Source: a virus. From it: DNA of 64,000 nucleotides. Under the pieces are notes generated by a model. The model saw only the letters and a list, made by a program, of their open reading frames with translations. It made no database searches and had not been told where the DNA came from. Every line of letters starts with the position of its first letter. Within the stretch, counting starts at the first letter, position 1. Of the stretch, positions 6,401-41,594 are shown piece by piece. Location: positions 1-64,000 of IMG/VR virus record IMGVR_UViG_3300023281_001229; one strand, given 5' to 3'. Made by a program: the position numbers and the translations under genes.

Positions 6401-9400
6401 GAAATTATCAATATTTCTATATCGGCTTAAATCCGCTTTAGTTACACCACTAGCTAAAAGCCATTTATCTTTCATATCTGCAATCTCTTGCATTATTTTT
6501 TGAATTTCTTTTTGGGCTTTAGCGTTTATTTTATTTCCATCATACTGATTAAAATCATCACGAGTACCTTTTATAATAGCAAAAACTTTTTCATATAAAG
6601 GACCTACATCTAAATCTTCATTATTTGCTGCTTGTAATTCAGCTAATATTTCACTACGCTTTTCAATTAATTGTGTTCTAACATCGTAATAACTTTGCTT
6701 TACTGAAACTGTAGTATTTAACAATAACCATTCTTTAACTTTTTCATCATAAGCATCAGTATTTTCTTTAAGACCAGCATTTTTAAGTCCAAGTTTAAAT
6801 AAATCAAACGTGTCATTAAACAAACCTTCTTTCTCTTCCCATTCGTAAAATTCTTGAATTTCATTCCTGTATTCAATTAACCTTTCAGCTATAGCTAAAG
6901 CTTTACCTGTTTTAGTCTTACCATTTTCATCATAAATATTAGATAGATTTGCATACTCAGTCCATAATAAATCTAACGCTGCTGATTTTTGTCTTAAATC
7001 TCCTGCTAATGTTATATTATCTTCTACTTGACGCATCCGTCTAAAAATATCATTTTGAGCAGCTCTAGCTTCTGTTCCTAACTCATCATATAAATATTTT
7101 TTTTGAACTTCATAATAGCGAGGATCATAATCCCGATTCATATAATCAGTTAAAAATTCTTCTAGTTCTTTTTGTGCATCGTTATAAGCTTTTTCTGTTT
7201 CCTCAGTTTGTCTAAAATTAAAATCTTTTTTAGCTTCTAAAACCGCTTGTGTTAAAGTATTTAAATCAAACTCATAATCTTTAAAATTGCTTTTAAATCT
7301 ATATTCTAAATATTCAATTACTTTGCCATCCTCATCTAATTCAAAAGATTTGTTAATAGTACTAAGATCTTTACCCATAGCCCCTTCACTAGCAAATCTT
7401 GATTTTACATCTCCATAACCAGCGTCTTTCATTAATTTATCTAAACCATTATACAATTCAGATCTTCTTGCATTCGCATTACCATCTATTGTATTAAAAG
7501 TTTTTTGTAGATAAGTTGCAAATCCACCTACTATTAAATCTTGACTATTTAAATAAGACTCCATTAAACCATTTAAAACACCAGCATCGGGTAATAGTCC
7601 AGCAGCATAAGCTTTTAATTGATCTTTACTGATATCATGTCCATCATAAGACTTTAATCTTAATTGAGACAATTCTTCAGTTTCTTTCCTAGAAATTGTT
7701 GATTTAGAAATAGATTCAAGTTCAAGTAACCTAAACTTCTCCTCTACAGTAATGCCGTAATATTCTAAATGTAATTTATTATACATTTTTAAATTATTAG
7801 AATCTTTAGCCGATTGCATCTGATCTAAAAAATCTTGTTTAATAGGCTCCATTTGCTCAGTTAAAGTATCATAAAGTACATCTATAACTTTATCAGAAGA
7901 TAACCTATTTGCTATTCGCTGAGCTTTATATAATTTTTCTTCCAACTCATTTAATGCACTGTTCCATTGAGAAGAGTTTAACAAAGAACCTTTTTTCCAA
8001 GTTTCTATTTGTTGTTTCCAAACTTCAACAAATTGCATTATTGCAAAAACTTGATCAAACTCATCTGTATCAAAATTTTCAATCTTTTCTAACTCTTCTA
8101 ATTTACTAATGTATTTATCTGCAACTTGTTGTGTTATAAAAATAGAATCAGAAAATGCTTTTATTCTTTGTACAAACTCTAAAGCATCTTTTTCTAATCT
8201 AGTATCGCCTTCTACTTTAAGTTTATCCAAAGGCATAACTAATTGTCTATTGCCAATAGTAACAATATTTTGCATTAAACCTTCTACCTTTTGAAGTAAA
8301 CCTTCTCGGTTAGTATCAGCTAAATCTTTTTCTATTTTTTTAAAAATATCATTTTCTAATTGAAACCTAGATAACTGGTTAGCCGTTATTTGATAAAACT
8401 GGTTCATCATAACTTGAGTTTTTTCAGAAGCATTTTTCTGTAACTCTTCTTGCATTTTTGTATAATCTGTTTCAAACATTGTAAACAGATTTTTTTCTAA
8501 AAACTCTTGATTTAAAACAAACTCTTTACCATAATTAATCATCTCTACAAATTGAGATAAAGTAGTCTTGTCATTTAATTTAGAAATATTTATTTTTTTA
8601 CCAAACTGCCCTCTTAAAAATTGCTTTATAGCAAAGAAGATCTTTTGTATCCAATTTTTAACTTTAGGTTCTTCTGTAATATTTGTATCACCATTGATTG
8701 CTTCTAAAGCCTGAACAATTGCCTCTTCCATATACTCAGCAGTTCCTGGCGTATAATAACTGTCTTGATTTAAATTGGTAATTATTGTTTGTCCAATCTC
8801 AGTTTTAACTAACTCTTCAAAAAGACTATTGAATAATTTAGGATTATCTTGAGATAAAGATTTAATAACAGGATGAGCAAACTCATGAAAAACACTACTT
8901 GCGCTTAAAGAACCTTTTGCTAAATATACCTTACCTCCTCTATAAAAGTTTTTTCTAAACGGCTCATTGGGAAATAACGCTGCCATATCTTCATCACTAA
9001 TGATTTCATAAGGTATGTTTAATTTTTTGGAAAGAGCTTCCGCTAAATTTAAAGCAACCGTTTGATTATCTTGCTCAACAATTGTATTAAAATTATCTTT
9101 TACAAACTTTAAATAATCTTCCGGTGTTTCTAAAGAAGGCTGTTTTCCAAAGTCTACCATCATATCTGCCATAGTTTCAAAACTCTCTTCAATCCGGGCA
9201 TTAATTTTTTCTTGAATAACAGATGATGGACGAACAATTTTATTGTTTTCAAAATAGTCACGAAATGCTTCCTGCTCTCCTATAGCATTAGCTACTTGAT
9301 TAAACTTTTCTAACTGTAGGGAATCAGTAGGTTTTCCATTCTTTTTAATTAGTTCTAGTAAAACATAATTGTCAATTTCAACAACATCTGTTTTTTTATA

Positions 9401-9601
9401 ATTCCAATTATCAGACTCTACAGAAAAATCTAATTTAGATTTAGAAAGTTCTGTTTCTTTCAAAACCATTTCTTCATTATTAAAATTTTCATTTAATAAA
9501 TCACCATATTTTTCATTGTATATGATCTCAGCCAATAAAGGATTAGGTTCAGTTTCTAATATTTTTTTAAACTCAGGACTATTTGGATTTACACACGCCA
9601 T
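3428..9601 (-). CDS. Giant virion protein with zincin-like domain (about 2057 aa)
   Basis: The last of three giant late proteins. I place the start at the ATG at 9601, giving MACVNPNSPEF, because it forms a TAATG overlap with the upstream stop. An in-frame ATG at 9610 would add three residues. Around residue 240 is VFHEFAHPV, an HExxH zinc-metalloprotease signature, followed about 45-55 residues later by EYMEEAIVQAL, which could supply the third ligand. A basic hydrophobic helix follows (KIFFAIKQFLRGQFGKK). Most of the remaining length is alpha-helical and predicted coiled coil; the last third is richer in aromatic residues and ends SPEEIKDTYGLTEEDAKAF. In crAss-like phages the corresponding giant proteins are packaged in the capsid with the RNA polymerase. 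Protease activity is inferred from the motif only. Confidence 0.85.
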   Translation of the reverse strand: MACVNPNSPEFKKILETEPNPLLAEIIYNEKYGDLLNENFNNEEMVLKETELSKSKLDFSVESDNWNYKKTDVVEIDNYVLLELIKKNGKPTDSLQLEKFNQVANAIGEQEAFRDYFENNKIVRPSSVIQEKINARIEESFETMADMMVDFGKQPSLETPEDYLKFVKDNFNTIVEQDNQTVALNLAEALSKKLNIPYEIISDEDMAALFPNEPFRKNFYRGGKVYLAKGSLSASSVFHEFAHPVIKSLSQDNPKLFNSLFEELVKTEIGQTIITNLNQDSYYTPGTAEYMEEAIVQALEAINGDTNITEEPKVKNWIQKIFFAIKQFLRGQFGKKINISKLNDKTTLSQFVEMINYGKEFVLNQEFLEKNLFTMFETDYTKMQEELQKNASEKTQVMMNQFYQITANQLSRFQLENDIFKKIEKDLADTNREGLLQKVEGLMQNIVTIGNRQLVMPLDKLKVEGDTRLEKDALEFVQRIKAFSDSIFITQQVADKYISKLEELEKIENFDTDEFDQVFAIMQFVEVWKQQIETWKKGSLLNSSQWNSALNELEEKLYKAQRIANRLSSDKVIDVLYDTLTEQMEPIKQDFLDQMQSAKDSNNLKMYNKLHLEYYGITVEEKFRLLELESISKSTISRKETEELSQLRLKSYDGHDISKDQLKAYAAGLLPDAGVLNGLMESYLNSQDLIVGGFATYLQKTFNTIDGNANARRSELYNGLDKLMKDAGYGDVKSRFASEGAMGKDLSTINKSFELDEDGKVIEYLEYRFKSNFKDYEFDLNTLTQAVLEAKKDFNFRQTEETEKAYNDAQKELEEFLTDYMNRDYDPRYYEVQKKYLYDELGTEARAAQNDIFRRMRQVEDNITLAGDLRQKSAALDLLWTEYANLSNIYDENGKTKTGKALAIAERLIEYRNEIQEFYEWEEKEGLFNDTFDLFKLGLKNAGLKENTDAYDEKVKEWLLLNTTVSVKQSYYDVRTQLIEKRSEILAELQAANNEDLDVGPLYEKVFAIIKGTRDDFNQYDGNKINAKAQKEIQKIMQEIADMKDKWLLASGVTKADLSRYRNIDNFYMNNQGKYLSNEDRIFHQRFWDVAEATLLRFGITKTDVLTLRKVNEYLSKMTSSGLTQTYIETFTKFVTSNPESKKIFADSQRAVDILDGDMPIANELFDTTKNIKLIERLKEANPEFAEWFDRNHYTEEIDEYDTTGRYASTETIYRSTPVWSYSNPSDISEYEAKAAVGMPKQFSERGFIEVDGVPRIPTRAYQRRLVKEQYQTPKILEDYVDESGNLILANRDNRGKWLPKDYNPNQPNFAKTNKYIDASYKAMFNEDRAKWNLLDHVKKAHLNNQKLLDNSQRLFLSYPRYRKGALEVYDRNWWNRKKLRLRDTWYQAVDDYEIGFYTGSTADKSIYNSFSRPISGSFKLPLLDVSTNIIESVMDHAYSVEQFKAMRDVNSVSNLLKNTLEVMSTTEEGNILAELEVKKIAKNQSLLTERKSKASKRAKQVQSLISKHLKGQSIKTFSDQQDEGLGKVELRVSKLIGIAAQKMAFMSFALDPVKSLTNYFGGKLMTWKKSTEGRWYNTKDLAVTRAKSLMVIKEMIAKQYSNEVPSAVLQLLDVAGALPSGLKKEIGGRAGRTVGTSVAEGSFFYADRRYLNDSTVVHQFLAMLEHARFELDGRSVSLADAVELRDGKIYTKEGVPAELSISYDEKGKIKLGSKLTDITNAHQTFLQKNIGVASEYTEPEAYRTVLGKFVLFLVKFFPGMALDKYQIRTKKGKWGNRRLNLASKQAEIGTYLSLFTGINELWNGTYNPKKMSWQTRKGFLNVLATVLVQYLLRQLQMMIYFQDSDDEDFSIAWNPDEDSFYNMNSVLKASTSALGEDNPFVSKQYTVNNGAAFSWENYFKLQALRIILRVENEERTFNPEQAFFTAGSIATLQSPLADGGAVKEIFALIDEVRNITTNDEDGIVKKAPGPYVWQEEDRYKIWNIFGRLVGVKGDLLYPQDVIKREKRYFREGIFDWGIKQIPDLPNVDRLVQSSPEEIKDTYGLTEEDAKAFLEKY

Positions 9602-12600
9602 TAGTAACATTTTTTTAAGTGTTCAACAATTTGATCATTAGATTTTTTTGGATTTGCTAATGCTTCCTCAATATACTTTAAAGCATTAACAACTTTAAAT
9701 TTCTTAGCAAAGTTATCTAAAATACTTTGTTTTTTAGATTCATCAAGCAAACCAAATTTAAAAAGATCGGCATACTCTTTTACAGAAGCTGCGGAACCCT
9801 CAACAATATTCACATCTGTTTTTTGATTAATATAATAATCTAAAACAGTAGCGTGAGAAGGCATCCCAATATCTTTATAATATTCTATTTTCATACCTTT
9901 TAGTTCGCCAGATTCAAAAGCATCTAGTAATGCTTTTCTATAAGGCTGCTCTAATTCAGTAAACATAGTACCTTCTAACCATCCAATAAATTCTTTTGTT
10001 GCCTGTCCTACAGGTTTACCTTCTGCAGAAATAGGATTACCAATAGAATTATATTCATTAAAAGAACCTAATAAATTAGCTTTAGATGCACGGTACGCTT
10101 TTATAACAGACTTATCTTTCATATTATTCCAGATGTTCTCTACAATCTCTACATTTTCAGAAGCCGTTTCAAAACCTAACTTATCATATATATCTTCTAT
10201 AGTTTCTTTTTTTACTTCAACTACAGGAGATTGCTTTTGAGCTTGATTCCTTAAATTCATAAATACTTGCTCTACTAAAGAATCAAATAAAGAAGTTGAA
10301 CTTTTACCTAGAGTTAATAGACCAGCAGAAGAATTTTTTAACTCATACCGTAGTTTGGCTTCATAACTTATTTTTCCTTTTGTTAACAAACTTTCGCTTC
10401 TTATAGCATCTACTATCATCGTGTAAACCACTTCGTATCCTGTTTTCTCTTTTAAACCTGAAGATAACTTTTCGAATTTTTTTGGTTGTTTCCTAGCCAA
10501 ACCTCTATCTACACCATTAGTTAAAACAACTTCATATACTTTATCTAATAGTTCATTATATACAGAATTATTAGTTAAATACATTGTTTGCTCTGTAGGC
10601 TTATAAAAATCATGAACCACATCTTTCAAATTTTCGCTTTTTACCATTTCAAAATAAACTCCAGCTTTTGTATATTGCCTAACCGCAACGTAGCCGTTAT
10701 TTTCTAAATATTGTTTAGCTAAAGCATCTATTCCAGAGTAGTTACCAACTATAAAAGTTTCAACTCCCGCCTTCATAGCTTTATCTATCATTTTTTGATG
10801 ATATGAATTAAAAGTGTTTTTAATTTTTTCAAGGTATATTTTAGCACCATTTGTTTCATTATTGTAAGCACGCTCAACCATTCCTGATCCAAATATCCAA
10901 ACTACATCTTTACTTGTAAACTGTTTTTTCCTAGAACTTTTATCAGCCAATACATTCCTTTTTCCAAACTCGTCTTGTTTTAAAACAGATACATATGCTT
11001 CAGAAGTTGATTCATAAACTGGATTTAAAGCTTTTGTAGACGCTCCTATGGCTTTACTAGAACGATTAGCCATAGCTTCATCCTTAACTGTGTTTAAACC
11101 TTTTAAAACAGAAGATCTTTCAATAGATAAACCTTGTCCAATTTCTTTACGTTGAGCAATTAAATTTGGTAGTTCACCAGTATTATCAATTCCAATTATT
11201 TTTAAAGCATTATCGAATTCTTCTTGAGTAAGAAGGTCAGGTTGTATCAATTCAGGAATTAACATTTTTTCATTAACAATAATTAAATTTGCTCCTTTAC
11301 TTACTTTCATTACTTCCTCAACACTAAGCCTTCCACTTATCATAGTATCAAGTATTATGTCAGCATTAATTAAATAACCTCCTTCAGTTCTCTGAATTGA
11401 CCATGCCTCTTCATAAGACTTTGCTACAGTAATTAAATTTTTACCTCTTTTTAGTGTTACTTTTTTTGCTTTAGAAAACTGTAAATTGTTTATAGTATAG
11501 TTATGACCTCTTACTTTTTGCGCTTTTTTACTTAAAGCGTCATTAAATAATTGAGCAAATTGATCTATAATTTGACCATCAATTTCTTCCCTAGAAACAT
11601 TATTTTTTATTAATGTATTTACATCATCTAAAACACCATTAATATATTTTATTCCTATAGACTGATCAATAATTTTTTCTAGCTTAGTTTGATCTGTTAA
11701 TTTAGTCAATGCATATTTTGATTTTACACTTAAACCTGTTTGCATTATTGCAATGTGATCAAACTTTCCAAAAAATTCTTTAACTTCAGGATGAGGACTG
11801 TTTTTTAAGTTCGCAATATTTTCTCTATAAACTTGAGCCATTTGAGCATCTTGAATTTGAGAAAGATACATATTCATTTTTTTAAGAGGTTCGTTGTAAT
11901 CATATTTAATATCTCTAAAAAAAGCATAATTGTCAAGCTCGGTTTTATATTTAGAATGGATATTTTTTAAAATATTAGCAACACCTGAACCAAAATTAAA
12001 CATTGCCTCAGGATTACTTGTATTATAAAGAGCCGCTTTAGTTAAAATCATTGTTTTCCCTGTAGTTTCACCTTTATCTAAATAACTATTGCTTGTATTA
12101 TCAAATATTCCAAAAGTTTCTAAAAATTCTTCTTTTGTCATATCTTTAGAAACTTCTTGTAAATTAGACATCTCTATATAAAATTTAACAAAATCTTTAG
12201 GTTTGCTTATGTTAAAAAATTGCATTGCCGGAGCATTTTCTAAAGAACCAAATAAATTAACTACAGCTTGCGTAGACCATGTAACAACTCCGGTTTCTTT
12301 ATTAATTTCTATTTCTTTTAAGCCACCTTCTTCCTTTAAAGTGTAAGTCACACCTGGTAAAGATGTTTTATTATCTACAATGCTTGTACCTGAGGTTGTA
12401 TAAGAATCACCAGCATAAACGGCATTTTGATATAAAAACCAAATAAAGTCATCTTTAAATTGAGTTAATATTTTAGCCTTATCCATTCCTTTAGGAACGG
12501 TTATTCCTAATGATTTTAATATTAGTGCTGGATTATTTTTAACACCAAAATATTTAGAAAATAAATCAACAATAAATTTATCATTATCAAATTTGCCAAT

Positions 12601-15600
12601 AGGTGAATTTTTAACTCCTTCAAAAAATGAATTAGGTATAATTTTTTTATTAGCAGGTTTAGATTTAAATTCTTTTATTTTTTCTTGTCTATTTTGAGCT
12701 TCAGAAATAGAACTTATTTTTTGTGTATCAAACTTTTGTAATTGAGTAAATGTGTTTAAGTCTTCTGCCATTTCTTTAGCAGCTAAAAACGTAGCTAATA
12801 ATTCGATATCTCTAAAATCTATTTCTCTGTTTTTAAGACTTATTCTGTTTTCTAATTCTCCTTCATTAAATTCTTTAGATTTATTTACAATTAAATTTTG
12901 TGAATATTTTGAATAGCCCGCATTTTCTAATAAAGGCAAGTATTTTTTCATTATTTCTGTTAAAGCTTGTTTAGCAGGCTTACTGTATTCCCTGGCTTCT
13001 TCATCAACATATTCTGCTATAAGCGCGTCTAATTCTTCTACCTGATTTTCTTGAATAATGTCACCAAAAATACCACTGTACTTAGCCAAATTAGAATTAT
13101 ATTCCATTACTAAAGGGTTAGTCATCATAGAAATAATATTTCTTGGGCTGACACCCGCCATCGTTAAAAATAATATAGTAGGTGTATTTTCTTTATCACC
13201 TTGCATTTCCGCAATCCATGGTGAATTCGCAGCATCTACATATCCGTTTATTAATTGAGAAAGCAAATCAGAAATTAATTTACCATCAACATTTTCAACC
13301 ATCCCTAAAGACAACGCATTTTCTGAAAGAACTTCATTGCTTTCTAGTTTTAAAGTTTTACTTTGATATGACTCTACAATTTTTAAAGACTTAGACCAAA
13401 TTGCTGGATTAGTTCGAGAATTAGATTCAACAGTTAAAATCTTTAAAGCATCAACAAATTGTTTTTGATCTTTTGCTGAAGTAGATTGAAGAGTTGCTTG
13501 AAAAGTTGTAAACACTGCATAAAATGTACTAGCAACAGCTGCTATACCCAAAGAGTCTAAAGCAACAGACATTTCTTGATGCTTTAATAAATTAAATCTA
13601 TAGTCAAATATTTTAGTATTACCCCCTTGAGTTTTATCAAATGTTCTTTGAATTTTTTTACCAGCCTCTCTGGCCATATCTTCCCAGGCTTCAGTAGTAT
13701 TAGGTGATACTAATCTTGACATGTTACTTGGATCTAAAACTCTTTCTTGTATTAGATCAATTAATCTATTTTCTAAACCTTTAGTAGTTCTACCTTGTAA
13801 TTTTGCTTCTAGTTGAAACAATTTATTTTCAACTTCTTTTATTTTAAACTCAACTTCTTTTATAGGATCATTGTACCTTTTAAACTCTGCATCAACAGCC
13901 GCTCTTCGCTCTTCTTTACCAGAAATTTTAGTTTTGAAAAAATCACTAAGTACTTTTTCTAATTCCATTTCAGCTTCTGCTATATTTGCTTGGCCCTTTT
14001 CAATTTCTTCATTTAACAGTTGATGAAATTCTATTTTTTTACTAATACTATATTTGCCACTAGAATATACTTCTGTCTTTTGTTTATAAAGAACTTGTAT
14101 ACCATTTTGGTTTTTCTTTATTCTATCTATGTATTCTTGTGCTGCTTCATTAACATTACCTTTTTCTTTGAGATATTCAATGTATGAGTTTAAAAGCTCT
14201 TTTCTGTCTTCTTTAAGAACTTCTCTTTCTTCTTCTAGTTGTTCAATTGCTGTAAATATTACAACAGGATCTTCTTTTTGATTAGGAATATATTTAACCT
14301 CTTTAACTATACCGTATTTAGAAATAAAGTTTTTCATTAATGTAAACATAGCATCTACATCATAATCAGAACCTGTATTTACAACTACCTCTGCAGGCAT
14401 TATAATTATTGGTCCTGCTGCTTCTGGCAAAAACTCAGCTACTCTTGTAGCAATAAAAGCATTAGATCCTTGAGATGGTATACGCACCCCAGGAATATCA
14501 ATCATTTTACCATATTTTTCTAACCACACAGAATCTTTTATAGCTTTATTTAAGTTTGCTAACGAAGCCACCTCATCATAAATTTTTTCACCGGTTGCTG
14601 TATCTCTTGTAAAAACTTTTATTGGCTTATCATTATATTTTGTATTTAAAAGTTTTTTATATTCACCTTGCAAAGCAATCTTAATTTCCATTTCAGTAAC
14701 AGTATATAAACCAGTTTTTGGATCTTCTATATACTTTCCATTTTCATCTACAGCGAAGTGAAATTTTAAACCACTTGTTCCATATTTTTCGTGATCTTCT
14801 TTTGTACCAGTTTTATAATCATATGATTCCCACATTGCAGAACTAACCTGAGTTAATTTTTCACCATTAGATTTAAGTCGTCTTAATTTTTTATCTACAA
14901 GAGTAGTAAGTAATTCTTCTATTTTTGAACCAATCAACGAAAAAGATAAATCATCAATTAAAGTACCGTCAGGCTTAGAAATATAACTTATTTCTTCAGG
15001 TAATAAATCATTATCTTTTAGTTGTGTTTTAATATATTCAACTAAAGCTTTTGAATCACCCTCATAAACAGTATCGCCATTAGCATTTTTTACTTCTTTC
15101 ATTTGAATGTCTTCCAGTAAACTGCTTCTTAAAACAGCTTCCATTTCATCTAAAGTTTCAGTGAAATCTTGATACCACGCCCATTTTTTTGATTTTTCTC
15201 TTTTCTTTAGATTTGTAAGTTTTTCCCAATTTGATTTACGTTTAGGTGCATTGGGTTGAAAATCAAAAGGTACACCATTATCTAAAATACCATTTAACGC
15301 AATTTTTCTTAATTGAGTTGGTAAAGTAACATAACCTTTAAATCCTTCTTTAATAAATATTTGACTTTTAAGACTGTTTACATCAATTTCATTTATAGTC
15401 CATGGAACCGCTTTAGCTAAAAAATCATCATTTACTAATCTATCCTTTGCACTATAAAAATCATCTTCTATAGGAATAAATTTTTGCTTTTCTTCACTCC
15501 ACTCCACCTTAGTTAATGTAGATAATTTAGATCCAGAATTCATAGTAACATATGCTAATCCTTGCTCCATCATAGATTCATGCAGCTCAACTAACTTAGG

Positions 15601-18600
15601 TGCATTTTTAATAACTTCAGGAACCAAAGGCATCAAAGAAAATTTATGAAAGGCTGAATTAGCAAAATCTAAACCAAGGCCTCTTAATAAAGATTGAGTT
15701 TCTGCATTTGTTACTGCACCAAATGTCTGAAATTTTCTAACAGGAAATGTAACTTTTCGATCTTCTGAATTTAAAGTTTCTTCATTTAACATTTTTTGGT
15801 AAACACGCTCTTGAGGATCAGACCATTCATCTATGGAAATATTCAATAATCTGTATGCATCAAATGAAATCCAACCTTGACCGTCAGCTTCTTCCATTGC
15901 GCTGTAATCTTCTACATCTAAATCTAAATTTTTATATTGATTTTTAAATACAGCATCACTTATTATTTCTTTCATGACACCTGTACGCAGTTTTCCAGTA
16001 TATGTGTAATCACGAGTTACACCTTCTTTCTTATTATGTTTTTTAGAAAAGCCATCATTGTTAAAAGCTTCACTATTTATATACTGAAGCCATGCAGCAT
16101 CCCTTCTTACAATTTTACCTGTAGAAATAAAACCAGCAATTCTTTTATGAAATGCTTCTTTTTCAATATCATATACAGAAGCATCTCCTAAAAAAGTTGC
16201 ACTATAATCAGCATTAGATAAAAAATTATTAAAAATAAAAGAAGCATACATCTTAAATTTTATATCCTCTAAAGATTCTGTTTCAGACGTAGTATAAAAA
16301 GCAACCATGTTGTCTGAAAGAGGAATAGTTTCACCAAACTCTTTTATCATATTATCTGTCTTTCTTGCAAAGAAACCCATTAATTTTTTTTCAATTTCTT
16401 GAATTAAGTCATTTGATAATTTTGGACTATTGTTCCATTCATTTATAATTTCACTATTTGATAATAATTTTTTGCGTATGTTGGAATTTTTTGGAAAAAC
16501 AGCATCAAACATATATAATTCAGTTCCTCTATTTAATTGTTTAACATCAATAGCAATATCAGGAACAGAACCATCTTTGATTTTTTGACCTAACTCCAAA
16601 GACCTATGAACTCGGTGGATATCATTTACAATGTGGCCTATAAATTTATCATATAAAATTCTACCTTTATATTCATCAGTAAGCATTTGATCAATTTCCG
16701 CCTTGTTAATTGTTAAATCATATTGAGTCCTTGTTTTAGATTCTCCTGGTGCTTTAATATCAGCATAAACTGTTAATGAAGTAGATTTTGCTTCAGAGCG
16801 CATTATTTCTTGACGATTGCTTAATGTTAAATAAAAATCACCAATTACTTTTGTATTCTGATCTGAACCTATTTGAGATTCACCTTTATCATTTTCTATC
16901 TGAGAAATGATTTGCATTTTATCTTGCTCATTTAGCCCTGAATATTCAATAGCCTGAATAGCTTTATTACCAGATAAGTTTTTTACATGTAATTTAATAG
17001 ACACATCTCGCTTACCTCTAACCGATTTGTCATATTTAGAACCTAATCTAAACATGCTAGTTAACCAATTTGATGCTGCCACTTGCGAATTAAATTTAGG
17101 ATTCAAATGTTCTAACCCAGGAGTTGAATATAAGTCTTCTATAGAGGTTGCTTTATTAATAGAGTTAACCATTAACAACAAACTAGAATTAAAAGACTTT
17201 TCACTTTGCAAATCGCCTTTAGCATTACGAGCAGAAAAGCTAGTAAATTCATCAGCATATTCATATTGCGTTTCTCTTAAAGCTTTTCTTACTCCAAAAA
17301 TTTCAGGTTGTTCTTGAATTTTTCCAGAAGAATCTTTATACATAAATCCTTGAAATAATTGATTTAAATTACTTATGTATTGTCTGCTTGTATCTTTTTC
17401 CCATCGCTCATCAGCCTCATTCCAAAGAACTGCATTTAGCCTATTTGAAATATTATCAACTAAATATGCCATAATCGGAATATTAAAATTAGTTGATTCA
17501 TTATACAGAATCTCCATAACAGCTGGATCAGAACTCATCTCAATACCAAAAGTTTTTAAAAATTCAATTGGTTCCGCTTCAGCTGAAACTTTTCTATTTT
17601 TAGTATATACTCCTGTGCCTTGTAGTTTTTTTGATTTAGCTATTTGTGGACCTTGCCCAGATATTTTTCCAAAGTAAGTTCCTTGGCTTGAATCTATCCA
17701 ATCATCATAAACTTGTTGTAAATCTAATTTAGTAACTCCTTCTACTTGTTCAACATACTCATTCTCGTTTCTTAATAATTCAAAATTAAAATTAGAATTC
17801 CACTGTCTATCAATTATTAAATCTTCTGATTGAGCTTTTCCTACTTTAGATACAAGGTCAATTGTAGCTGTACCATCATCTTTTATCTTAATGTTATTTT
17901 GTAACATAAACTCTGCTAAAAGAACATCTGATTTATTTACTGATTGCCAGAAACTTGTCCACTGCTTATGTTCAAATGTAGTTAACTTATCAGCATGTTT
18001 AAGATCTGTTATATCCCCAAGCATATTAAAAATTTGAGCAATTTCTTTATCAGTTTTTGCTGCAATTTTTAATTTTTCTGACATCTCTTGAGCGTCTACG
18101 GTATTAGTTAAAAGTTTTGCTACTTTAGCTAAAGTGTTTCTAAAAGGAAGCAATCGCTGTACACCAATAGGATTTAACATAGGATCACCTTTACCCTGTT
18201 GAGTATAAGCCCTAACAGAAGATAACATGTTTATTGTAGCTTTAGACAAAGTTTTATCTAGCATTAATTCTTGACCACCTCTGCCCCACAAGACTTCCCA
18301 ACTTTCTGTATCTTCTTCTAAATCGTCTAATGTTAATTTAGAAACACTTTCCGGCATACCTGATAAATCTAAAGAACTATAATTATTTAAAAATGTAGAT
18401 AACAAAGTTGAATTTTCATCTTCATTTAAATACTTATTAAAATCTAAAGCTTCTCCAAAATTTTCTGATTTTAAGACTTTTTCTAAAAGTTCAGATTGAT
18501 AATTTAAAGAAACGCTTTCTCCAGAATTTGAATCTATATTTTTTAATTTTTCTTTAATTAAATTCAACTCTTGTTCAAATCTGGATTTAATAAAATTCAT

Positions 18601-21276
18601 TGCTAAAGCAAAAACTTTAGGATTGGTCTGTAACATGTATGTACCAGAACCTGTTCTTAACCTATTATTAAATAAATTTTCATGAGCCTTAGCGGCAGCA
18701 TTGTAGATTTCAGTTCCTGGTATATTTTCAGCCATTAGCTGCAAAAACTTGACACTATTTTGTTTATCTTCTATACTTTCTGAAATATTTAAACCTCTTG
18801 TTGTAAACTCTGAAAGCAGTGATTGCATGCTTTCCATAACTAAACTAATCTCCTCTAAAGAAAAAACATCACCTGTTTCTGTTTTAATTTCTTCTGATTT
18901 CCATTTAGCTTCATTAGTTCTAGCAGTAAACATTTCAGATGTAAACTCTCCTTTATATAAAGAATTAAACAAAACATCCACTAATGCATTGCTTTTATTC
19001 AAAGCCTTTGCATCAGCATAAGTCATTCCTCCAAAAATGTTTTTAATTAGTGCAAGCAGCTTTTGAAAAAATGATTTAACTTTATTATTGCTAAATTTCA
19101 TTTTTTTACCATCGCTTAATGAAAATTCTCTAAACTCTTCTGCTAAATATTCTTCTATCTCTAAATTTGTAGCAGAAGACCAGCTTATAGTTTTTAACTG
19201 ACCGTTAACCGTTGTATTAAAAGTGCCAGTCCTGCTTCTTAATGAATCATAAATTTCTTTACGCTCTGATTCTGTAAGAATACCATCAAAAAAAGCATGA
19301 AACGCTTCATGGTAAATATCTGAATTAGAAGATCCTTGATATAAATTAATAGTATTACCTATAAAATTAGCAACAAAGTTTGGACCTAATTCACTAACAC
19401 CATCTATAAAATTTAATTTAAGAATATCAAACAGCGGACTAGATTTAAACCACTCAAGAGCTGCTGCATTTTGTTTAGATGTAGCTTGCGTAGATTGATT
19501 TCTTTTTGAAATACTTCTAAATTTAACTTCTCCCTTTAAAGGTTGTATATCAGCTAAACTATCAACACCTTTTTCAAATTTTAAATAAGATCCCATTGCT
19601 ACAATTTTGTTCTCTCCATTTAAAACAATATTTGTAAAACCTACGCTTGTAACTTGATCTCTTAATGTTTTTTTATTACCAGTTTTTATTACACCATTTT
19701 CTAATTTAACCGGCACTTTACTGCCGCCTAAAATAAAGTCGTCCATGCTTAAAGATCGCTCATCTGCAAAATTTCTAACCGTACCTTGACTTTCATAAAT
19801 TTTACCATCTTTACCATAATATACTTCACCTAAATTAGTAACATCTTCAATAGATTTTTTAACAAACACCCCTTCTGTTATTAATTCAGGCTTTACTTCT
19901 TTAGCAAATCTTTTGTTTGCCCACTCGGTTAAACGTTCTAAGGTTAGTTCAGAAGCTTTAATTACTTCTGTTCCTAATGTAACAGTAGCTACTGTAGCCT
20001 CATCAACAGCGTTTGCTTTTCTTCCAGGTTCAAAAGCAAAAACATTTTGACGCTCCTGAATAAAATAACTTATAAACTTGAGGCGTGTGTTATTATTTAT
20101 CTTAGATTTATAACCTTCCATTATTACATCTTCAGCTGTTATTAAATGATGCAATACTTCAAATTCCTCTTTAGTAAGTGATGATAATGCTTTAGGAAAA
20201 ACTCTAAAAGCAGTGTTAGAATTCATAGGTTTTATTACAGGATAAAATTGTTTACCAGTTGTTTCTTTTCCTAAAGGAGCTTCTTCAGTATTTAAATTAA
20301 TTACATCAGATAGATTTGTTGTATTATTTCTATTTAAAGCAATAAATCCTAAACTACTCTGTCCTATATTAATACTCATATAAACAGAATCTTTTGATTT
20401 AGCAGAAGATTCAATGTAGTTTATAAAATCAGAAATATCAGCTGATGCTTTTTTTAACGCTTCCTGCTTAGATAAACCTTTATCTTCATATTGCTCAGCA
20501 ATTATTTTTTTTTGATTTGCTAAAGCTTCCGAATTTGTAGCAATACTAAATACCGGAAAATTACCATTAACATCTTCAACACCTTCAGAATTAAATTTTA
20601 CTATTTCATTACTACTATTTACTAAAACTAATTTAATTGTACTATTATCTTTTGTACTTGTTGTGTCTGTAAATCCACTTTCTTTTTTTAAAGCCCCAAG
20701 AGTAGTTAATTTAAATTGATATAATTGAGAATTATTATTTTTAATAATATTCCTAGAAACCTTGAATTCAAATGCTTTATTAGGATCTTGAATGTTTTCA
20801 GCGTACCCAGTTTTTTCATTCCAAACAGCTTCTTGGTTATTTGTTCTAAATATTTGTTTTGATATAGCTACAAATCTTTCCTCAAAATTTTTGTCTGGTA
20901 TTCTAACATCTTTATTACCCAACATCAACCCTAAACTTTTAATTAAATTTTCAAAAGGCTCCGAGGATTTTGCTTTAGAGCTATTGATAACCTCTGTCCC
21001 TAAGTCTTGAAAAAATTTAGAATCTTTATATTGTATTACCGGATTTTCTGATAAATGTTTTAAAACAATCTGAGGAACAATGCTCATGTGTTGCAAAACA
21101 ATTTCTTTATTTTCGGCTTCGGTCAAATTAGTATTTGCAAAAGAGTCCGTAGTTAAATTAAATAAATCTGTCATTAAAACAGATGCACTTTTATTTTCTT
21201 TTAATAATTCTGGTAATTGCTTGTTAACATATGTACCAAATAATTTTAAACTATTTGGAGTAATACAAATTTTCAT
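9601..21276 (-). CDS. Virion-associated RNA polymerase-type giant protein (3891 aa)
   Basis: The largest gene in the window. Residues about 2265-2308 carry RIPSQGSNAF, then PIIIMPAEVVV, then GSDYDVDAMF. This parallels the beta-prime active-site region of cellular RNA polymerase, where RAPTLHR is followed about 35 residues later by NADFDGD. Here the three Mg-binding aspartates would be D2304, D2306 and D2308. crAss-like phages encode such single-chain enzymes (phi14:2 gp66 is the characterised example), packaged in the virion to transcribe early genes after ejection. A zincin signature YHEAFHAFF lies at about 655-663, with EIEEYLAEEFREF downstream. A SLOG-like Rossmann segment (VVWIFGSG...FIVGNYSGIDALAKQYL) lies at about 3455-3515. 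A long Glu/Lys coiled coil precedes residue 2500. The beta-like barrel with its lysine pair is probably upstream near residue 1980, but I could not pinpoint it. Confidence 0.88.
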   Translation of the reverse strand: MKICITPNSLKLFGTYVNKQLPELLKENKSASVLMTDLFNLTTDSFANTNLTEAENKEIVLQHMSIVPQIVLKHLSENPVIQYKDSKFFQDLGTEVINSSKAKSSEPFENLIKSLGLMLGNKDVRIPDKNFEERFVAISKQIFRTNNQEAVWNEKTGYAENIQDPNKAFEFKVSRNIIKNNNSQLYQFKLTTLGALKKESGFTDTTSTKDNSTIKLVLVNSSNEIVKFNSEGVEDVNGNFPVFSIATNSEALANQKKIIAEQYEDKGLSKQEALKKASADISDFINYIESSAKSKDSVYMSINIGQSSLGFIALNRNNTTNLSDVINLNTEEAPLGKETTGKQFYPVIKPMNSNTAFRVFPKALSSLTKEEFEVLHHLITAEDVIMEGYKSKINNNTRLKFISYFIQERQNVFAFEPGRKANAVDEATVATVTLGTEVIKASELTLERLTEWANKRFAKEVKPELITEGVFVKKSIEDVTNLGEVYYGKDGKIYESQGTVRNFADERSLSMDDFILGGSKVPVKLENGVIKTGNKKTLRDQVTSVGFTNIVLNGENKIVAMGSYLKFEKGVDSLADIQPLKGEVKFRSISKRNQSTQATSKQNAAALEWFKSSPLFDILKLNFIDGVSELGPNFVANFIGNTINLYQGSSNSDIYHEAFHAFFDGILTESERKEIYDSLRSRTGTFNTTVNGQLKTISWSSATNLEIEEYLAEEFREFSLSDGKKMKFSNNKVKSFFQKLLALIKNIFGGMTYADAKALNKSNALVDVLFNSLYKGEFTSEMFTARTNEAKWKSEEIKTETGDVFSLEEISLVMESMQSLLSEFTTRGLNISESIEDKQNSVKFLQLMAENIPGTEIYNAAAKAHENLFNNRLRTGSGTYMLQTNPKVFALAMNFIKSRFEQELNLIKEKLKNIDSNSGESVSLNYQSELLEKVLKSENFGEALDFNKYLNEDENSTLLSTFLNNYSSLDLSGMPESVSKLTLDDLEEDTESWEVLWGRGGQELMLDKTLSKATINMLSSVRAYTQQGKGDPMLNPIGVQRLLPFRNTLAKVAKLLTNTVDAQEMSEKLKIAAKTDKEIAQIFNMLGDITDLKHADKLTTFEHKQWTSFWQSVNKSDVLLAEFMLQNNIKIKDDGTATIDLVSKVGKAQSEDLIIDRQWNSNFNFELLRNENEYVEQVEGVTKLDLQQVYDDWIDSSQGTYFGKISGQGPQIAKSKKLQGTGVYTKNRKVSAEAEPIEFLKTFGIEMSSDPAVMEILYNESTNFNIPIMAYLVDNISNRLNAVLWNEADERWEKDTSRQYISNLNQLFQGFMYKDSSGKIQEQPEIFGVRKALRETQYEYADEFTSFSARNAKGDLQSEKSFNSSLLLMVNSINKATSIEDLYSTPGLEHLNPKFNSQVAASNWLTSMFRLGSKYDKSVRGKRDVSIKLHVKNLSGNKAIQAIEYSGLNEQDKMQIISQIENDKGESQIGSDQNTKVIGDFYLTLSNRQEIMRSEAKSTSLTVYADIKAPGESKTRTQYDLTINKAEIDQMLTDEYKGRILYDKFIGHIVNDIHRVHRSLELGQKIKDGSVPDIAIDVKQLNRGTELYMFDAVFPKNSNIRKKLLSNSEIINEWNNSPKLSNDLIQEIEKKLMGFFARKTDNMIKEFGETIPLSDNMVAFYTTSETESLEDIKFKMYASFIFNNFLSNADYSATFLGDASVYDIEKEAFHKRIAGFISTGKIVRRDAAWLQYINSEAFNNDGFSKKHNKKEGVTRDYTYTGKLRTGVMKEIISDAVFKNQYKNLDLDVEDYSAMEEADGQGWISFDAYRLLNISIDEWSDPQERVYQKMLNEETLNSEDRKVTFPVRKFQTFGAVTNAETQSLLRGLGLDFANSAFHKFSLMPLVPEVIKNAPKLVELHESMMEQGLAYVTMNSGSKLSTLTKVEWSEEKQKFIPIEDDFYSAKDRLVNDDFLAKAVPWTINEIDVNSLKSQIFIKEGFKGYVTLPTQLRKIALNGILDNGVPFDFQPNAPKRKSNWEKLTNLKKREKSKKWAWYQDFTETLDEMEAVLRSSLLEDIQMKEVKNANGDTVYEGDSKALVEYIKTQLKDNDLLPEEISYISKPDGTLIDDLSFSLIGSKIEELLTTLVDKKLRRLKSNGEKLTQVSSAMWESYDYKTGTKEDHEKYGTSGLKFHFAVDENGKYIEDPKTGLYTVTEMEIKIALQGEYKKLLNTKYNDKPIKVFTRDTATGEKIYDEVASLANLNKAIKDSVWLEKYGKMIDIPGVRIPSQGSNAFIATRVAEFLPEAAGPIIIMPAEVVVNTGSDYDVDAMFTLMKNFISKYGIVKEVKYIPNQKEDPVVIFTAIEQLEEEREVLKEDRKELLNSYIEYLKEKGNVNEAAQEYIDRIKKNQNGIQVLYKQKTEVYSSGKYSISKKIEFHQLLNEEIEKGQANIAEAEMELEKVLSDFFKTKISGKEERRAAVDAEFKRYNDPIKEVEFKIKEVENKLFQLEAKLQGRTTKGLENRLIDLIQERVLDPSNMSRLVSPNTTEAWEDMAREAGKKIQRTFDKTQGGNTKIFDYRFNLLKHQEMSVALDSLGIAAVASTFYAVFTTFQATLQSTSAKDQKQFVDALKILTVESNSRTNPAIWSKSLKIVESYQSKTLKLESNEVLSENALSLGMVENVDGKLISDLLSQLINGYVDAANSPWIAEMQGDKENTPTILFLTMAGVSPRNIISMMTNPLVMEYNSNLAKYSGIFGDIIQENQVEELDALIAEYVDEEAREYSKPAKQALTEIMKKYLPLLENAGYSKYSQNLIVNKSKEFNEGELENRISLKNREIDFRDIELLATFLAAKEMAEDLNTFTQLQKFDTQKISSISEAQNRQEKIKEFKSKPANKKIIPNSFFEGVKNSPIGKFDNDKFIVDLFSKYFGVKNNPALILKSLGITVPKGMDKAKILTQFKDDFIWFLYQNAVYAGDSYTTSGTSIVDNKTSLPGVTYTLKEEGGLKEIEINKETGVVTWSTQAVVNLFGSLENAPAMQFFNISKPKDFVKFYIEMSNLQEVSKDMTKEEFLETFGIFDNTSNSYLDKGETTGKTMILTKAALYNTSNPEAMFNFGSGVANILKNIHSKYKTELDNYAFFRDIKYDYNEPLKKMNMYLSQIQDAQMAQVYRENIANLKNSPHPEVKEFFGKFDHIAIMQTGLSVKSKYALTKLTDQTKLEKIIDQSIGIKYINGVLDDVNTLIKNNVSREEIDGQIIDQFAQLFNDALSKKAQKVRGHNYTINNLQFSKAKKVTLKRGKNLITVAKSYEEAWSIQRTEGGYLINADIILDTMISGRLSVEEVMKVSKGANLIIVNEKMLIPELIQPDLLTQEEFDNALKIIGIDNTGELPNLIAQRKEIGQGLSIERSSVLKGLNTVKDEAMANRSSKAIGASTKALNPVYESTSEAYVSVLKQDEFGKRNVLADKSSRKKQFTSKDVVWIFGSGMVERAYNNETNGAKIYLEKIKNTFNSYHQKMIDKAMKAGVETFIVGNYSGIDALAKQYLENNGYVAVRQYTKAGVYFEMVKSENLKDVVHDFYKPTEQTMYLTNNSVYNELLDKVYEVVLTNGVDRGLARKQPKKFEKLSSGLKEKTGYEVVYTMIVDAIRSESLLTKGKISYEAKLRYELKNSSAGLLTLGKSSTSLFDSLVEQVFMNLRNQAQKQSPVVEVKKETIEDIYDKLGFETASENVEIVENIWNNMKDKSVIKAYRASKANLLGSFNEYNSIGNPISAEGKPVGQATKEFIGWLEGTMFTELEQPYRKALLDAFESGELKGMKIEYYKDIGMPSHATVLDYYINQKTDVNIVEGSAASVKEYADLFKFGLLDESKKQSILDNFAKKFKVVNALKYIEEALANPKKSNDQIVEHLKKCY

Positions 21277-21277
21277 G

Positions 21278-24200
21278 CTATTTACATTTAGTTATTTCTG
21301 TTTTCAGATCTTCTAGTAACTGTTCATCAGATAAAGATTCAGCTTCTTTATTATACTTAGTGAAGTTACTTAAAATTTCAGAATAGGCTTCTTTAATATA
21401 CTGAAATTCGGTGGCATTTGCAACAACGTCAATAACTTGACCATTAAAAATAGTACCTGGTAAAAGTTCTTCAGTCATAGCTGATAATAATTCTTGAGAG
21501 TTTAATGCCATAACATTTCCAACCATACCTGATTGAAATTCTTCTAACAAAACAACTTCTATTTTATTAGATTCTTCTCTATAATCGTTAATAATATATG
21601 CAGTTCCACTAATGTTGACTACAGCTCCTTTAAGATTTCCTGATTCAAATTGTGAATCTATTGATTTTTGAATTGCTGTTTTTTGTTTTGCTGTTGTTAA
21701 CTTATTTAAAGCACTTGTGTAAGTATAAAAAGATTTTATAAAATTTAAATCCGATTGTTTTTCAGTATTAATTAATTTCCAAAGTAATTGTAATTGCTTT
21801 GGAACTGAATCTATTTTTAAAAGCTGTGCAGAAATAGATTCAGTAAATCCATATTCAGAAATATAATCTTCTGATTTTTCTTTAGCAGATAATTCTTCAG
21901 CATACTCCTCATTAAGCATTTCTTCAGCTAATAAATAATCTTGTTCTTTTGACAAAATTTCAGCTTCTATTATTGCTTTACCTTCTTGAGTTGTACTCCA
22001 TTCCACCCATTGCATTAAAGCCGCTTGTTCTTCAGTCATCCCTGATAACTCCTCTTCTCTTTTACTAGCTTCATAACTACTTATATCGTTGTCAATCATT
22101 TCTGCTACAGCATCAGCTAATTGATTTGGAGTAAATATATCGGCTAGTAATGATTCAGCAATACCCATTCCCGGAACATTACTACCCGGATCTAATGCAT
22201 TTCTAACAAACTCATTATCTTGCTCACCAAGACGCTCAGATAAGCCCTCTTCTATTTTTTCGCCTAATTCTGCAGAAGATCTATAGCTCATTTGTTTTTC
22301 AGGATTATTTGAAATCCAAGCCGAATATTGTTCTCTTAGTTTTTCTGTAAGAAAATAAGACGGGTTTAGTTTTTTTAAACCATCAGTATCAAAAAGCAAA
22401 AGTTGGGCCATTATTATAGCAGCTTTTGTTTCCATAGTGAATGCAATATTTTCAATATCTGCATTTTTAATAAGTCTTCTTGATGAGTCTTTAAAAGGCA
22501 TTTCGACATCAGAACCAAATTTTTTCTTTGGTGTAGCTCTTAGTTCATAAAGACTTGTTGAATTTATTAATTGCTTAGAACTTAATTTTTTTAATGTGTA
22601 CGCAATTCCTGATTCATTCAATAATCTATTTACTTTAATTACAACACTAGGATACAACCGTTGATTTTTTTCAAGCTGGGCTATTAACTTTTTAGCATTT
22701 TTTAAAGTTTCTAACTTAGTTTTTCCTATTAAAGTTTCTGGTAATAACTTAGAAATTTGATTAGGCTTAGTTGAAAATCTATAATTTCTCATTATATCCC
22801 TTACTCCTTCATTAAATTGATTTGAATCTAATAAAAATATTTCAGAATGATATTTAAGCATAAACTCCCGCATACCGTTGGGAATGTTTATTATTTTATC
22901 TTTTGTGTTAGCTATTTTCAGCTCATACTTTCCGGATGAACCTAAACGCTTAACATTATCTGCAATTAATTTTTCTTTTTTTAAACGCTCTTCTTTTTGT
23001 ATTTTTTCTTCTGCTTCTCTTTGTATTCTTAACCTTCCTGTAATTACGTTTCTTATATCTAAAAAACTAAACGCAATAATACCTTCTTGATTTTTTATTT
23101 TTTCGGCAAACTTTTTAATTTCTTTGTCAGTTAATAAGTCAGCTCCTGGTAATTGTTTAATTTTTTCTTCAAGAGTTAACTTAGTTTTTTTACCTTTTTT
23201 TCTAAGTTTTTCTAAAGCCATATCCTCTTTACGTTTAGCTTTAGCTCTATCAATCTTTTCTTGATTTAGTTTAATATCTTTTGAACCTTCTTGCTCATCT
23301 TGATCTTTTATTCTATCTGCAGAATATTTAGAGGCAGCTTCTATATATAAAGGATTTCTTTGCATCATTTCCGCAATAGCATCAATATCTTTTTGCTCTA
23401 ATGCAGTGATTGGTTTTCCATATAAATCAGCTATAGTATTTTGAAGTGCTTTAGGAAGTCTTGCAAAAGGTGTAAATGGAGTGATAATCTCATTTTTATT
23501 TCTATCAAATTCAGGAACATAATCTGTATTTTTTTCTAAGACCGGGGCGTTTTTTGTTACTTGTTCTGTTGCTAGTTTTTTTCTTTCTTCAGACAACTCA
23601 AGCACTTTAATTTTCAGCATTGATGTTTTAGTAGACAACCTTCGTTTTTCAATAAAAGTTCCTTTGCCTATTTTTAAATTGTCTTCATTAATTTTTATTT
23701 GAGCTCTTAAATTATCTATTTCATCTTGTATACTTTGAACCGTTCTAACATCACTATCTACCTCACTTTGTTTTAGAACTTCTTCTTCAACTTCTATTTC
23801 TTCTGTTTCAATTCTTGTTTGAATTTCTTCTCTGCCTAAAAACAGTTCTGCTTCTTGAGCCTTTAATAAAGAGTCTAAGCCTATAAATGTTTTACTATTA
23901 TATTTATTCTTTTTTGGATCTTGTCCTTCAAATAATGCTTTAACAAACCATTCTGATCTTTGTCCGCTACCATCTGTTTTTAACCTAGTTCCAAAATAAA
24001 GCAATGGTGTCCATTCTCCAGCAGTATCTGCAGTTGTCCCTGTACCGGTAGATTTATACATTAAAAAACGTTTACCATTGGCAACAACATCAATAATTAA
24101 TCTACCGTCTATTTCTAATCTAAGCGGTCCAAATTCCCAATTCATTTCATCTGATAAAACATCTATTTCATCAAGCTCTTTTCCTAAAGCAACTAGTTCA

Positions 24201-27200
24201 TCAGTAGCTGCGTTTACAGATTCTTCATTTTCAAATTGAATGTCATCATTAATATAATCTTCCATTAACGTAGGTTGATCTCTGGCTTCATTCATTACAA
24301 CAGTATTACCCCCTACATTTTCTTGAACTTCTCTAGTAACCGTTTTTGTTACTTTTATTTTTTCAGTTTTTGGGGCTTTCTTTTTTTCTTCAGTTTCTTC
24401 TAAAATGTAACCTAAATCTATAGCACCCCCTTTAGCACTATATTTAGCTAAATCGGCTATAGTTGTTTTAGTTGGTTTAAATTTGCTTACGTCTTTAGGT
24501 ATTATTTTTAAAAACTTTGCTGTTTCTTTAATAAGCATTTTTGCAAACTCATAGATTCTTTTAAATAATCCGGGTTTTTCTTTTTCACTTATTTGATTAG
24601 CCATAGCTAATTCATAAACTCTACCTACTAACTCATGTTCAAATTGTCTACTTCCGATACTTTCCTCTGTACCATATTCTGCCTCAACATAATCTATTAC
24701 AGATTGATCAGCTTTTGCTTCAGCAACTAAGGCTTTATATAATTCAGGATTTAGTTTTTCTGCATTAATTAAAAAAGGATGTAAAAATATTTCATGGAAC
24801 GGAGTGTTTTCTTTTACACCTTCTGCAACAATATACGCAGTATTTGTTTTTTCATCATAAAAGCCATTAGGTATCCCTGATTCTTTAGAATAAAAAGGAT
24901 TATTAATTTTATCTAAATAACTTTCTGCTTCTTCTTGATCTCTTAATATTTTAACATTAACATTCCATTTTGCACCTAACTCCGCACCTAATATTTTTAA
25001 TTCAGCTTCCTTTTTATCTAAAGCTTCGGTTGCTTCGTCTGTTCTAAGTTTAATATTAATTTCAGAAATGTCATCTATTATTTCTTGATCAACTGCTTTA
25101 GCTGCTATATTAATAACTTTATTAACTAACTTATTTTCAAATTTTTCTTTTACAATAGCTTCGCCCCCTTCTTTGACTGTAGCCCATAAAGTTTTTTTAG
25201 TTGGTTGAATTGCGTCTTCTATTTTACTTAAAAAATATTGAAACCCTGAATCATTTAATGCTTCAGATAAAAATACATTTACCGAATTAAAAACAGGCAT
25301 GTTTTCTACATCTTGCTCAGGATAAGTAGCAGCATAAACTTCTTTTGCTTGACGCATAGCATCTCTAGCTTGCAACCAAAGATCATCATTTTCAACTAAT
25401 CCTTCCGAAATCTTGTTTTGTGTTAAAGCAGTAATTACAAGATTTTCAATAGAGTAAGCAGAATTACTGTAGTCTTCCCCAGCAAATCTTACATCAATAG
25501 TAATTACACCTTGTTCATTAACTTGAATAGGAAGAGTTTGATCTTCAACAAACCTTATAGTACCCTCCGCTTCCATAACTTTTAACATGACTTCCCTATC
25601 TATAGGTGTCATGTATTTATTATCTACATCTAATATTTTATTTATTAATGTTAAACCTTCTTTAGAAGTAATATCAATATTTTTGTCAATTTTAATATTG
25701 TATTGACGTAAAATACCTTTGACTGTACGTTTATCTTGTTTTAGTTTTCTGCCCTGACTTCCTTCTTTAAGTCCACTTTTTACAATATTTTTGCCAGTTA
25801 ATCTTTTTATATACTTATCAATTATTTTCTCAGCTATTCTTGTCTGCTCAGAACTAGCAGCTTCATTATCTTCTAAATTAATAATCTCTTCAGGCATCAC
25901 CCTATTTTGTAAAAGATCATCTAAATATTTCAAATCAAAAAACACACCTGCATCATACAACTCTTTTAACATTTGGTCAGAAGATTGCTTTTTAGAAAAC
26001 TCAATTAAAGCGTTTTTAATATGCTCTTTTTTATTTTCTTCTAATCTACCTAACATTAATTTATGACTAGCCATAAAAGAACTAGATCCACTATTAGTCA
26101 TTAATGTTTCAGCATATTCTGTATAAGCACCTTCTTGTTTTTCTAAAATTATATAATCAAAAATTAAGTCAAATGCTTTTTTGTTAACTTCTGTTTGAGC
26201 TTCTTTACTAGTTAATCTATTTTTACCAAAAGCCTCAACTACCTTTTGATAAACATCAAACATCCCATCATAAATTTCTTCTTCTGATTCAGTAGTACTT
26301 GCTTGATTTAATAATTCTGTAGTTTGAGTTAAAACTAATTTATAATTTTCTAAAGCCTGAAGACGTTGTTCACTAATTTTAGAATCTTGCAATAAAGCCC
26401 CTGTTAAATTTAGGTCTTTATTAGCTTCAACCTCTGCCCTTAAAGTTTGAATTGTTTGATCTAAGCTACCTACTTCCACTAAAGACTCTACAGAAAACTC
26501 AGAAACCAAAGGATTTTGATCTCTAATCACTTCTTTAATTTCTTTTAATCTTTTAGCTCTATCTAAAATTTTAGAATGATTAAATAAAAGCTCATCTTTT
26601 AATGATTCAAACGCAGAATATTCTATAAATTTTTCTAAATAGTTATCAGCTTTAGGATCTAATTCAGAAAGCGTTATATCGTTAATAAAATTTTGTTGGA
26701 TTATTTTGTGTTTTTCAGATAAATTTCTTAATAATTCCGCATTGTCTAATAATTTTTTCCTAGACTCTCCTATGTTTTCTTCAGTTATATCTGTTCTAGC
26801 CATTAATTCGCTAAGCTCAGTTGCACCTAGTTCGGTTCCCATGTAGGTTAAATGATCAGACATTTGTTCAGCTAATCCAGCTTTAATAACTCGCCTTACA
26901 CCATTTGTAAAACTTTCATTTTGAGCATTCTTAAATTCTTTTTTCTGCCCATTTTTAGCAGCTTCTAACATTTCTTCTTGAATCTCAGCTTGTCTGGCAA
27001 TAGGCTTAGACCAAGAATCTATAAAATTTTTATTTTCATTAAAAAACTTAGTCAAAAATTCAGCTTCTTTTTCAAGCCTGTCCATTTCTGCTTTTTGAGT
27101 TTCTGCATATTTTGTTTTATTAGTAGCTTTCTCAAATGTACCTTGAGCAGAAATAAAACCACCTCCGTTAACAAAAGTGTTTATTTGTCCTGTAGCAAAA

Positions 27201-41577: not shown

Positions 41578-41594
41578 AACTAAAAAATAGTTAC
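41578..41594. repeat. 17-bp palindromic repeat, copy 2
   Basis: Identical to the sequence at 33242-33258 (AACTAAAAAATAGTTAC), here extended to a 7-base-pair stem GTAACTA/TAGTTAC. The TAA stop of the muzzle gene lies within it. It ends a gene just as copy 1 does. Confidence 0.7.

Follow-up and report, generated by a model that had tools for sequence, protein, structure and literature searches.

The question raised by this locus is whether a very large viral protein, which carries DYDVD where cellular RNA polymerases (RNAPs) have DFDGD in the catalytic loop, is an RNAP with a variant active site or a member of a polymerase family in which such a loop is the rule. The window analysed, a stretch of 64,000 nucleotides, is part of a 73,277-base IMG/VR virus record. 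An earlier note had placed a 3,891-residue protein at positions 9601-21276, and this open reading frame (giant RNAP polypeptide P0001) is indeed intact, with an ATG start and without an internal stop, although it must be assigned to the minus strand; its gene overlaps the next one by 10 nt. RIPS (residues 2265-2268) and DYDVD (residues 2304-2308; 14353-14367, minus strand) sit where they had been reported, and a motif scan revealed DYDVD to be the sole DxDxD in the whole protein.

Homology and predicted fold of the polymerase core

Scans of the whole protein against Pfam and PHROGs, and with phmmer against the PDB, gave no match, because P0001 is too divergent for single-sequence searches of this kind. 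When the central 1,301 residues were used in tblastn, cr108_1 (E=2e-20), Carjivirus gp44 (E=3e-7) and phi14:2 gp66 (E=6e-5) were retrieved. The block of residues 2263-2317 shares 40% identity with gp66 1320-1374 (BLAST, E=1e-8) and 37-47% identity with the RNAPs of Buchavirus, Burzaovirus and Buhlduvirus. An alignment query of IMG/VR yielded 352 relatives, of which 80 were kept, and a family profile of the RNAP core was built from 54 sequences. Against the PDB this profile had a sole match, 6vr4_A (phi14:2 gp66), with E=7.8e-211 over 1,328 residues; it also recovered gp66 at E=8.5e-203 together with every crAss-like RNAP fetched, and hhalign with gp66 gave E=5e-99. The profile envelope delimits a catalytic core of residues ~1577-2986 (12319-16548, minus strand), homologous to gp66 ~692-1940, with an identity of only ~21%. 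A chance occurrence of the DYDVD motif is ruled out by the alignment and the profile.

The fold points in the same direction. An AlphaFold model of residues 1664-2860 (pLDDT 83.3, pTM 0.83) had 6vr4_A as the top and sole significant Foldseek match in the PDB (E=2.7e-27, 1,237 columns), the next matches, below threshold, being two-barrel RNAPs with AR9 among them, and crAss-like phage proteins, phi14:2 included, lead its matches in BFVD. Across the whole alignment with 6vr4 the TM-score is 0.58 and the rmsd 9.7, so that, with ~21% identity, domain positions may differ. The gp66 alignment and model strands around residues 2260-2326 define the DPBB-A active-site block at residues 2263-2317 (RIPSQG ... 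NTGSDYDVD; 14326-14490, minus strand), in which R-x-P precedes DxDxD as in the gp66 family, and the whole-fold match to 6vr4 predicts two DPBB domains in one chain. D2304, D2306 and D2308 correspond to D1361, D1363 and D1365 of gp66, and the three Asp are invariant in 54 aligned relatives. Further family-conserved residues common to P0001 and gp66 are R2265 and P2267 as well as the pairs K1848/K1012, K1878/K1027, K1917/K1065, Q1988/Q1116, K1991/K1119, G2138/G1235, Q2143/Q1240 and D2681/D1612. The claim of a single-chain two-barrel RNAP related to phi14:2 gp66, which had been made to depend on a match to beta-prime or phage RNAP profiles and on a structure prediction resembling gp66, is borne out by tblastn, profile, model and Foldseek: a profile match was found and the gp66 fold was matched as a whole. 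P0001 is hence a divergent, newly found and otherwise ordinary member of the known gp66-type RNAP family.

Neighbouring genes and proposed mode of action

P0001 is the middle one of three co-directed giant open reading frames of 2,510, 3,891 and 2,060 aa, with the orientation and order of gp67-gp66-gp65 in phi14:2. The 2,060-aa protein (3428-9610, minus strand) is a probable gp65-type RNAP-associated partner, as BLAST revealed weak similarity to the Buchavirus gene downstream of the RNAP (E=2e-5) and, at E=6e-5, to Carjivirus gp44 in its C-terminal half; it contains HEFAH at 242, and phi14:2 gp65 also has HExxH, at ~245. The 2,510-aa protein (21278-28810, minus strand) occupies the gp67 position and shows weak similarity to phi14:2 gp67 (E=0.002) and to a 1552-aa protein of Lbo-JY46 (E=2e-8). 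Its HEIFLH at 1339 follows the HExxxH pattern that has been described for peptidases of polyvalent proteins (PMC5512222). A zincin-like motif is present in all three giants, as HEAFH in P0001, HEIFLH in the 2,510-aa and HEFAH in the 2,060-aa protein. The block of giant transcription proteins stands beside structural genes, as in the gp66 family, and these include a 1,631-aa muzzle-like structural protein (41591-46486, minus strand; Lbo-JY46 E=9e-51, with a csAssE-Sib match annotated as muzzle protein) and the major capsid protein (61720-63336, minus strand; a csAssE-Sib match annotated as major capsid protein, Lbo-JY46 E=1e-46). Short collagen-like Gly-x-y repeats occur in two further structural-block proteins (48754-49521 and 51274-51780, minus strand).

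P0001 is almost certainly a crAss-like virion RNAP of the gp66 type, given its homology, fold, catalytic residues and gene order, whereas its packaging, injection and role in early transcription are deduced from studied relatives. Like gp66 (PDB 6vr4), it combines in a single chain a core of ~1,200 residues with the catalytic and invariant residues, and its gene is flanked by two giant neighbours. The active site would be formed by two double-psi barrels within one chain, with the catalytic Mg2+ held by D2304, D2306 and D2308. On the model of phi14:2 and phiCrAss001, the capsid would hold the RNAP together with its two giant neighbours; the RNAP would pass through the tail in a partly unfolded state, regain its fold in the host and there transcribe early genes. 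In phiCrAss001, three RNAP-associated giants are present in the virion and ejection entails partial unfolding (PMC10172136), and phi14:2 gp66 transcribes early genes (PMC7886860).

Length of the chain and its zincin-like domain

As had been claimed, P0001 is longer than gp66 and carries extra domains, with ~940 additional residues ahead of the motif, the zincin-like domain among them, and ~770 behind it; its length is, however, not unusual but common in the family. Carjivirus, Rudgehvirus and Delmidovirus RNAPs have 4,070, 4,098 and 4,388 aa, and many environmental relatives have RNAP polypeptides of ~4,000-5,500 aa. The RNAPs of Carjivirus communis (crAssphage; gp44) and other Intestiviridae are likewise ~4,000-aa chains with DFDVD or DFDID, but unlike in P0001 their motif lies at ~1,430-1,740. 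The annotation of Carjivirus gp44 describes an RNAP joined to a further RNAP subunit; here, by contrast, a separate gene encodes the gp65-like partner, and a gp66-gp65 fusion was therefore rejected as the cause of the length. A C-terminal extra domain at residues 3395-3560 (10597-11094, minus strand), Rossmann-like by eye, shows weak similarity to residues 2103-2216 of the L026 protein, the part in common comprising residues 3395-3530, and no significant Pfam or phage match; a further C-terminal part, residues 3694-3866, is common to P0001 and L045.

The zincin-like metallopeptidase domain spans residues 584-822 (18811-19527, minus strand), with HEAFH at 656-660 and EEYLAEEF downstream, and was recognized by a profile at E=1.5e-55, a value to be read with P0001 itself among the profile sequences. 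Its signature is HExxH with a downstream Glu (EExxAExF): in 34 relatives H82, E83, H86 and A138 (alignment numbering) are invariant, and E135 and E139 are nearly so in 34 sequences. An AlphaFold model of the domain is of middling confidence (pLDDT 68), and a Foldseek search with it placed the metallopeptidases 6mdx and 4l7a among the top PDB matches, all with E>0.5. In a profile scan of 97 loci, 54 had the domain and the RNAP motif on one and the same open frame, so that the domain is a family feature. It lies on another open frame in 12 loci, in many of which the gene is broken by stops or by an insert, or is recoded; in two of these, L032 and L033, zincin and RNAP are probably fused as well, because the zincin frame (5,005 or 4,719 residues) holds GGDYDID, which the frame test missed. 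The remaining 31 loci gave no match to the zincin profile; truncated contigs account for some of them, and another three are stretches from phages without an RNAP match. Among named phages, cr108_1 (Pipoluvirus) and the Suoliviridae Buchavirus, Burzaovirus and Buhlduvirus share with P0001 a zincin-like domain (HESFH or HEAWH) that precedes the RNAP motif by ~1,400-1,900 residues, but differ from it in that cr108_1 has a gene interrupted at the catalytic motif and the Suoliviridae genes are read across many stops. In cr108_1 (L002:16440-16740), the alignment of the first RNAP gene extends as far as the position of D2304, where this gene stops, and the downstream part is taken up by the next open reading frame, as would be expected if an intron or some other insert were located at the DxDxD codons.

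Metallopeptidase domains are also found in other giant virion polymerases. The catalytic domain of the N4-type virion RNAP is T7-like and not of the two-barrel type. This N4-type enzyme resembles P0001 in its giant size and in its fusion to a zincin-like peptidase, and it is packaged in the virion, as P0001 would be (PMC5512222). P23-45 gp96 is a giant virion protein in which a two-barrel RNAP is combined with a metallopeptidase domain, but this Thermus phage enzyme has DFDGD, is clamp-less and is fused to the tape measure (PMC10770324). The N4 and P23-45 virion RNAPs are of unrelated or only distantly related origin, and with the metallopeptidase domains in their chains the zincin-like domain of P0001 becomes part of a recurring theme (PMC5512222, PMC10770324).

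The N-terminal zincin-like domain would probably cleave either its own chain, which would free the RNAP, or a protein of the host or the virion. A possible, if rather unlikely, extension of the virion RNAP reading is that P0001 is a self-processing polyprotein, whose zincin-like peptidase cuts the chain so that the free core becomes the active RNAP. The in-frame HExxH domain with conserved catalytic residues, the lack of such a domain in the gp66 chain and the zincin autoprocessing proposed for polyvalent phage proteins (PMC5512222) argue for it, but the N4 virion RNAP, although zincin-fused too, is packaged unprocessed (PMC5512222), and no zincin fold was recognized with significance in the search with the domain model. 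It is rather doubtful that the domain acts as a protease releasing or activating the RNAP around injection, with fusions that arose independently in crAss-like, N4-type and P23-45-type phages; if true, such independent fusions would suggest a requirement common to injected polymerases. The conserved fusion raises a testable question, namely whether the injected polymerase is cut out of a giant chain. A literature search retrieved no report of crAss-like RNAPs with a zincin or metalloprotease domain, although the main papers were outside its reach; since this coverage is partial and Carjivirus gp45, the neighbour of gp44, already carries a zincin annotation in its record, no priority is claimed for the fusion.

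The catalytic loop

The earlier note had described DYDVD as a variant catalytic loop with Val instead of Gly, which holds against cellular enzymes only, as Ile or Val is the rule within the gp66 family. phi14:2 gp66 itself has DFDID and Carjivirus gp44 DFDVD; eleven named crAss-like phages other than phi14:2 have DFDVD or DFDID, and cr111_1 has DLDVD. Among 80 environmental loci, the motif reads DFDID in 55, DFDVD in 14, DYDVD in 5 (L034, L040, L088, L092 and L095), DYDID in 5 and DYDYD in 1, and Gly before the third Asp was found in none. Tyr for Phe is a minority form (11 of 80). The environmental scan employed two patterns, one of which contains the motif (TGSD), and the 34 loci with a motif outside this pattern all have Ile or Val too, so that these residues were not selected there by the pattern. 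With Ile or Val in gp66 and its relatives and never Gly, the DYDVD loop represents the family norm, and Ile/Val, not Gly, is the catalytic-loop residue of the gp66-type family. DYDYD, in L041:10001-10672, is the only one of the 80 loci without Ile or Val at this position.

It is accordingly very improbable that the Gly to Val replacement marks an altered loop with unusual chemistry: DYDVD does differ from the DFDGD of cellular enzymes, which is also kept by the Thermus phage P23-45 vRNAP (PMC10770324), but the crystallised gp66 has DFDID, Ile/Val is near-universal in the 80 loci, including all 34 outside the TGSD pattern, and DYDVD recurs in five. Hardly any more credence is due to a catalytically dead homologue kept as a structural ejection protein, as extreme divergence and A2309, standing where >90% of relatives have Lys after the motif, might suggest, since none of the three Asp or of the further invariant positions has been lost and Carjivirus also lacks that Lys.

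Phage lineage and its polymerase

TerL, portal, major capsid protein and muzzle are homologous to those of crAss-like phages (Crassvirales and sister groups) and follow the typical order, and for the latter three the nearest named phage is Leptolyngbya phage Lbo-JY46, followed by csAssE-Sib and phi4:1/phi17:2. In the portal tree, the phage of the window and seven environmental phages, all with the RNAP, are sister to Lbo-JY46, phi4:1 and csAssE-Sib (support 100/100 for the joint side, 97/94 for the three named phages). The same eight phages fall inside one 11-row clade of the RNAP tree (100/100), its other three rows being contigs without a recovered portal, among which L023 (8 kb) was not searched. 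As both trees keep the same eight together, they are consistent with an RNAP inherited with the phage.

The RNAP core profile found no match in the whole records of Lbo-JY46, phi4:1 and csAssE-Sib, nor did hhalign with large proteins from fetched stretches of these phages. Absence of the RNAP from them is not claimed, because a weak HHpred RNAP match has been reported for crAssE-Sib (E=3e-3, 46% coverage; PMC11054128), and its loss in this branch is possible. A 2021 survey reported the transcription block from every crAss-like group but Epsilon, which includes phi17:2 (PMC7886860). P0001 extends the gp66-type polymerase to an environmental lineage beside this epsilon branch, reported in that survey to be without the block. 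The capsid and portal genes (61720-63336; record bases 64975-69953) mark this RNAP-bearing environmental lineage beside the epsilon crAss-like branch, with contigs of up to 156 kb.
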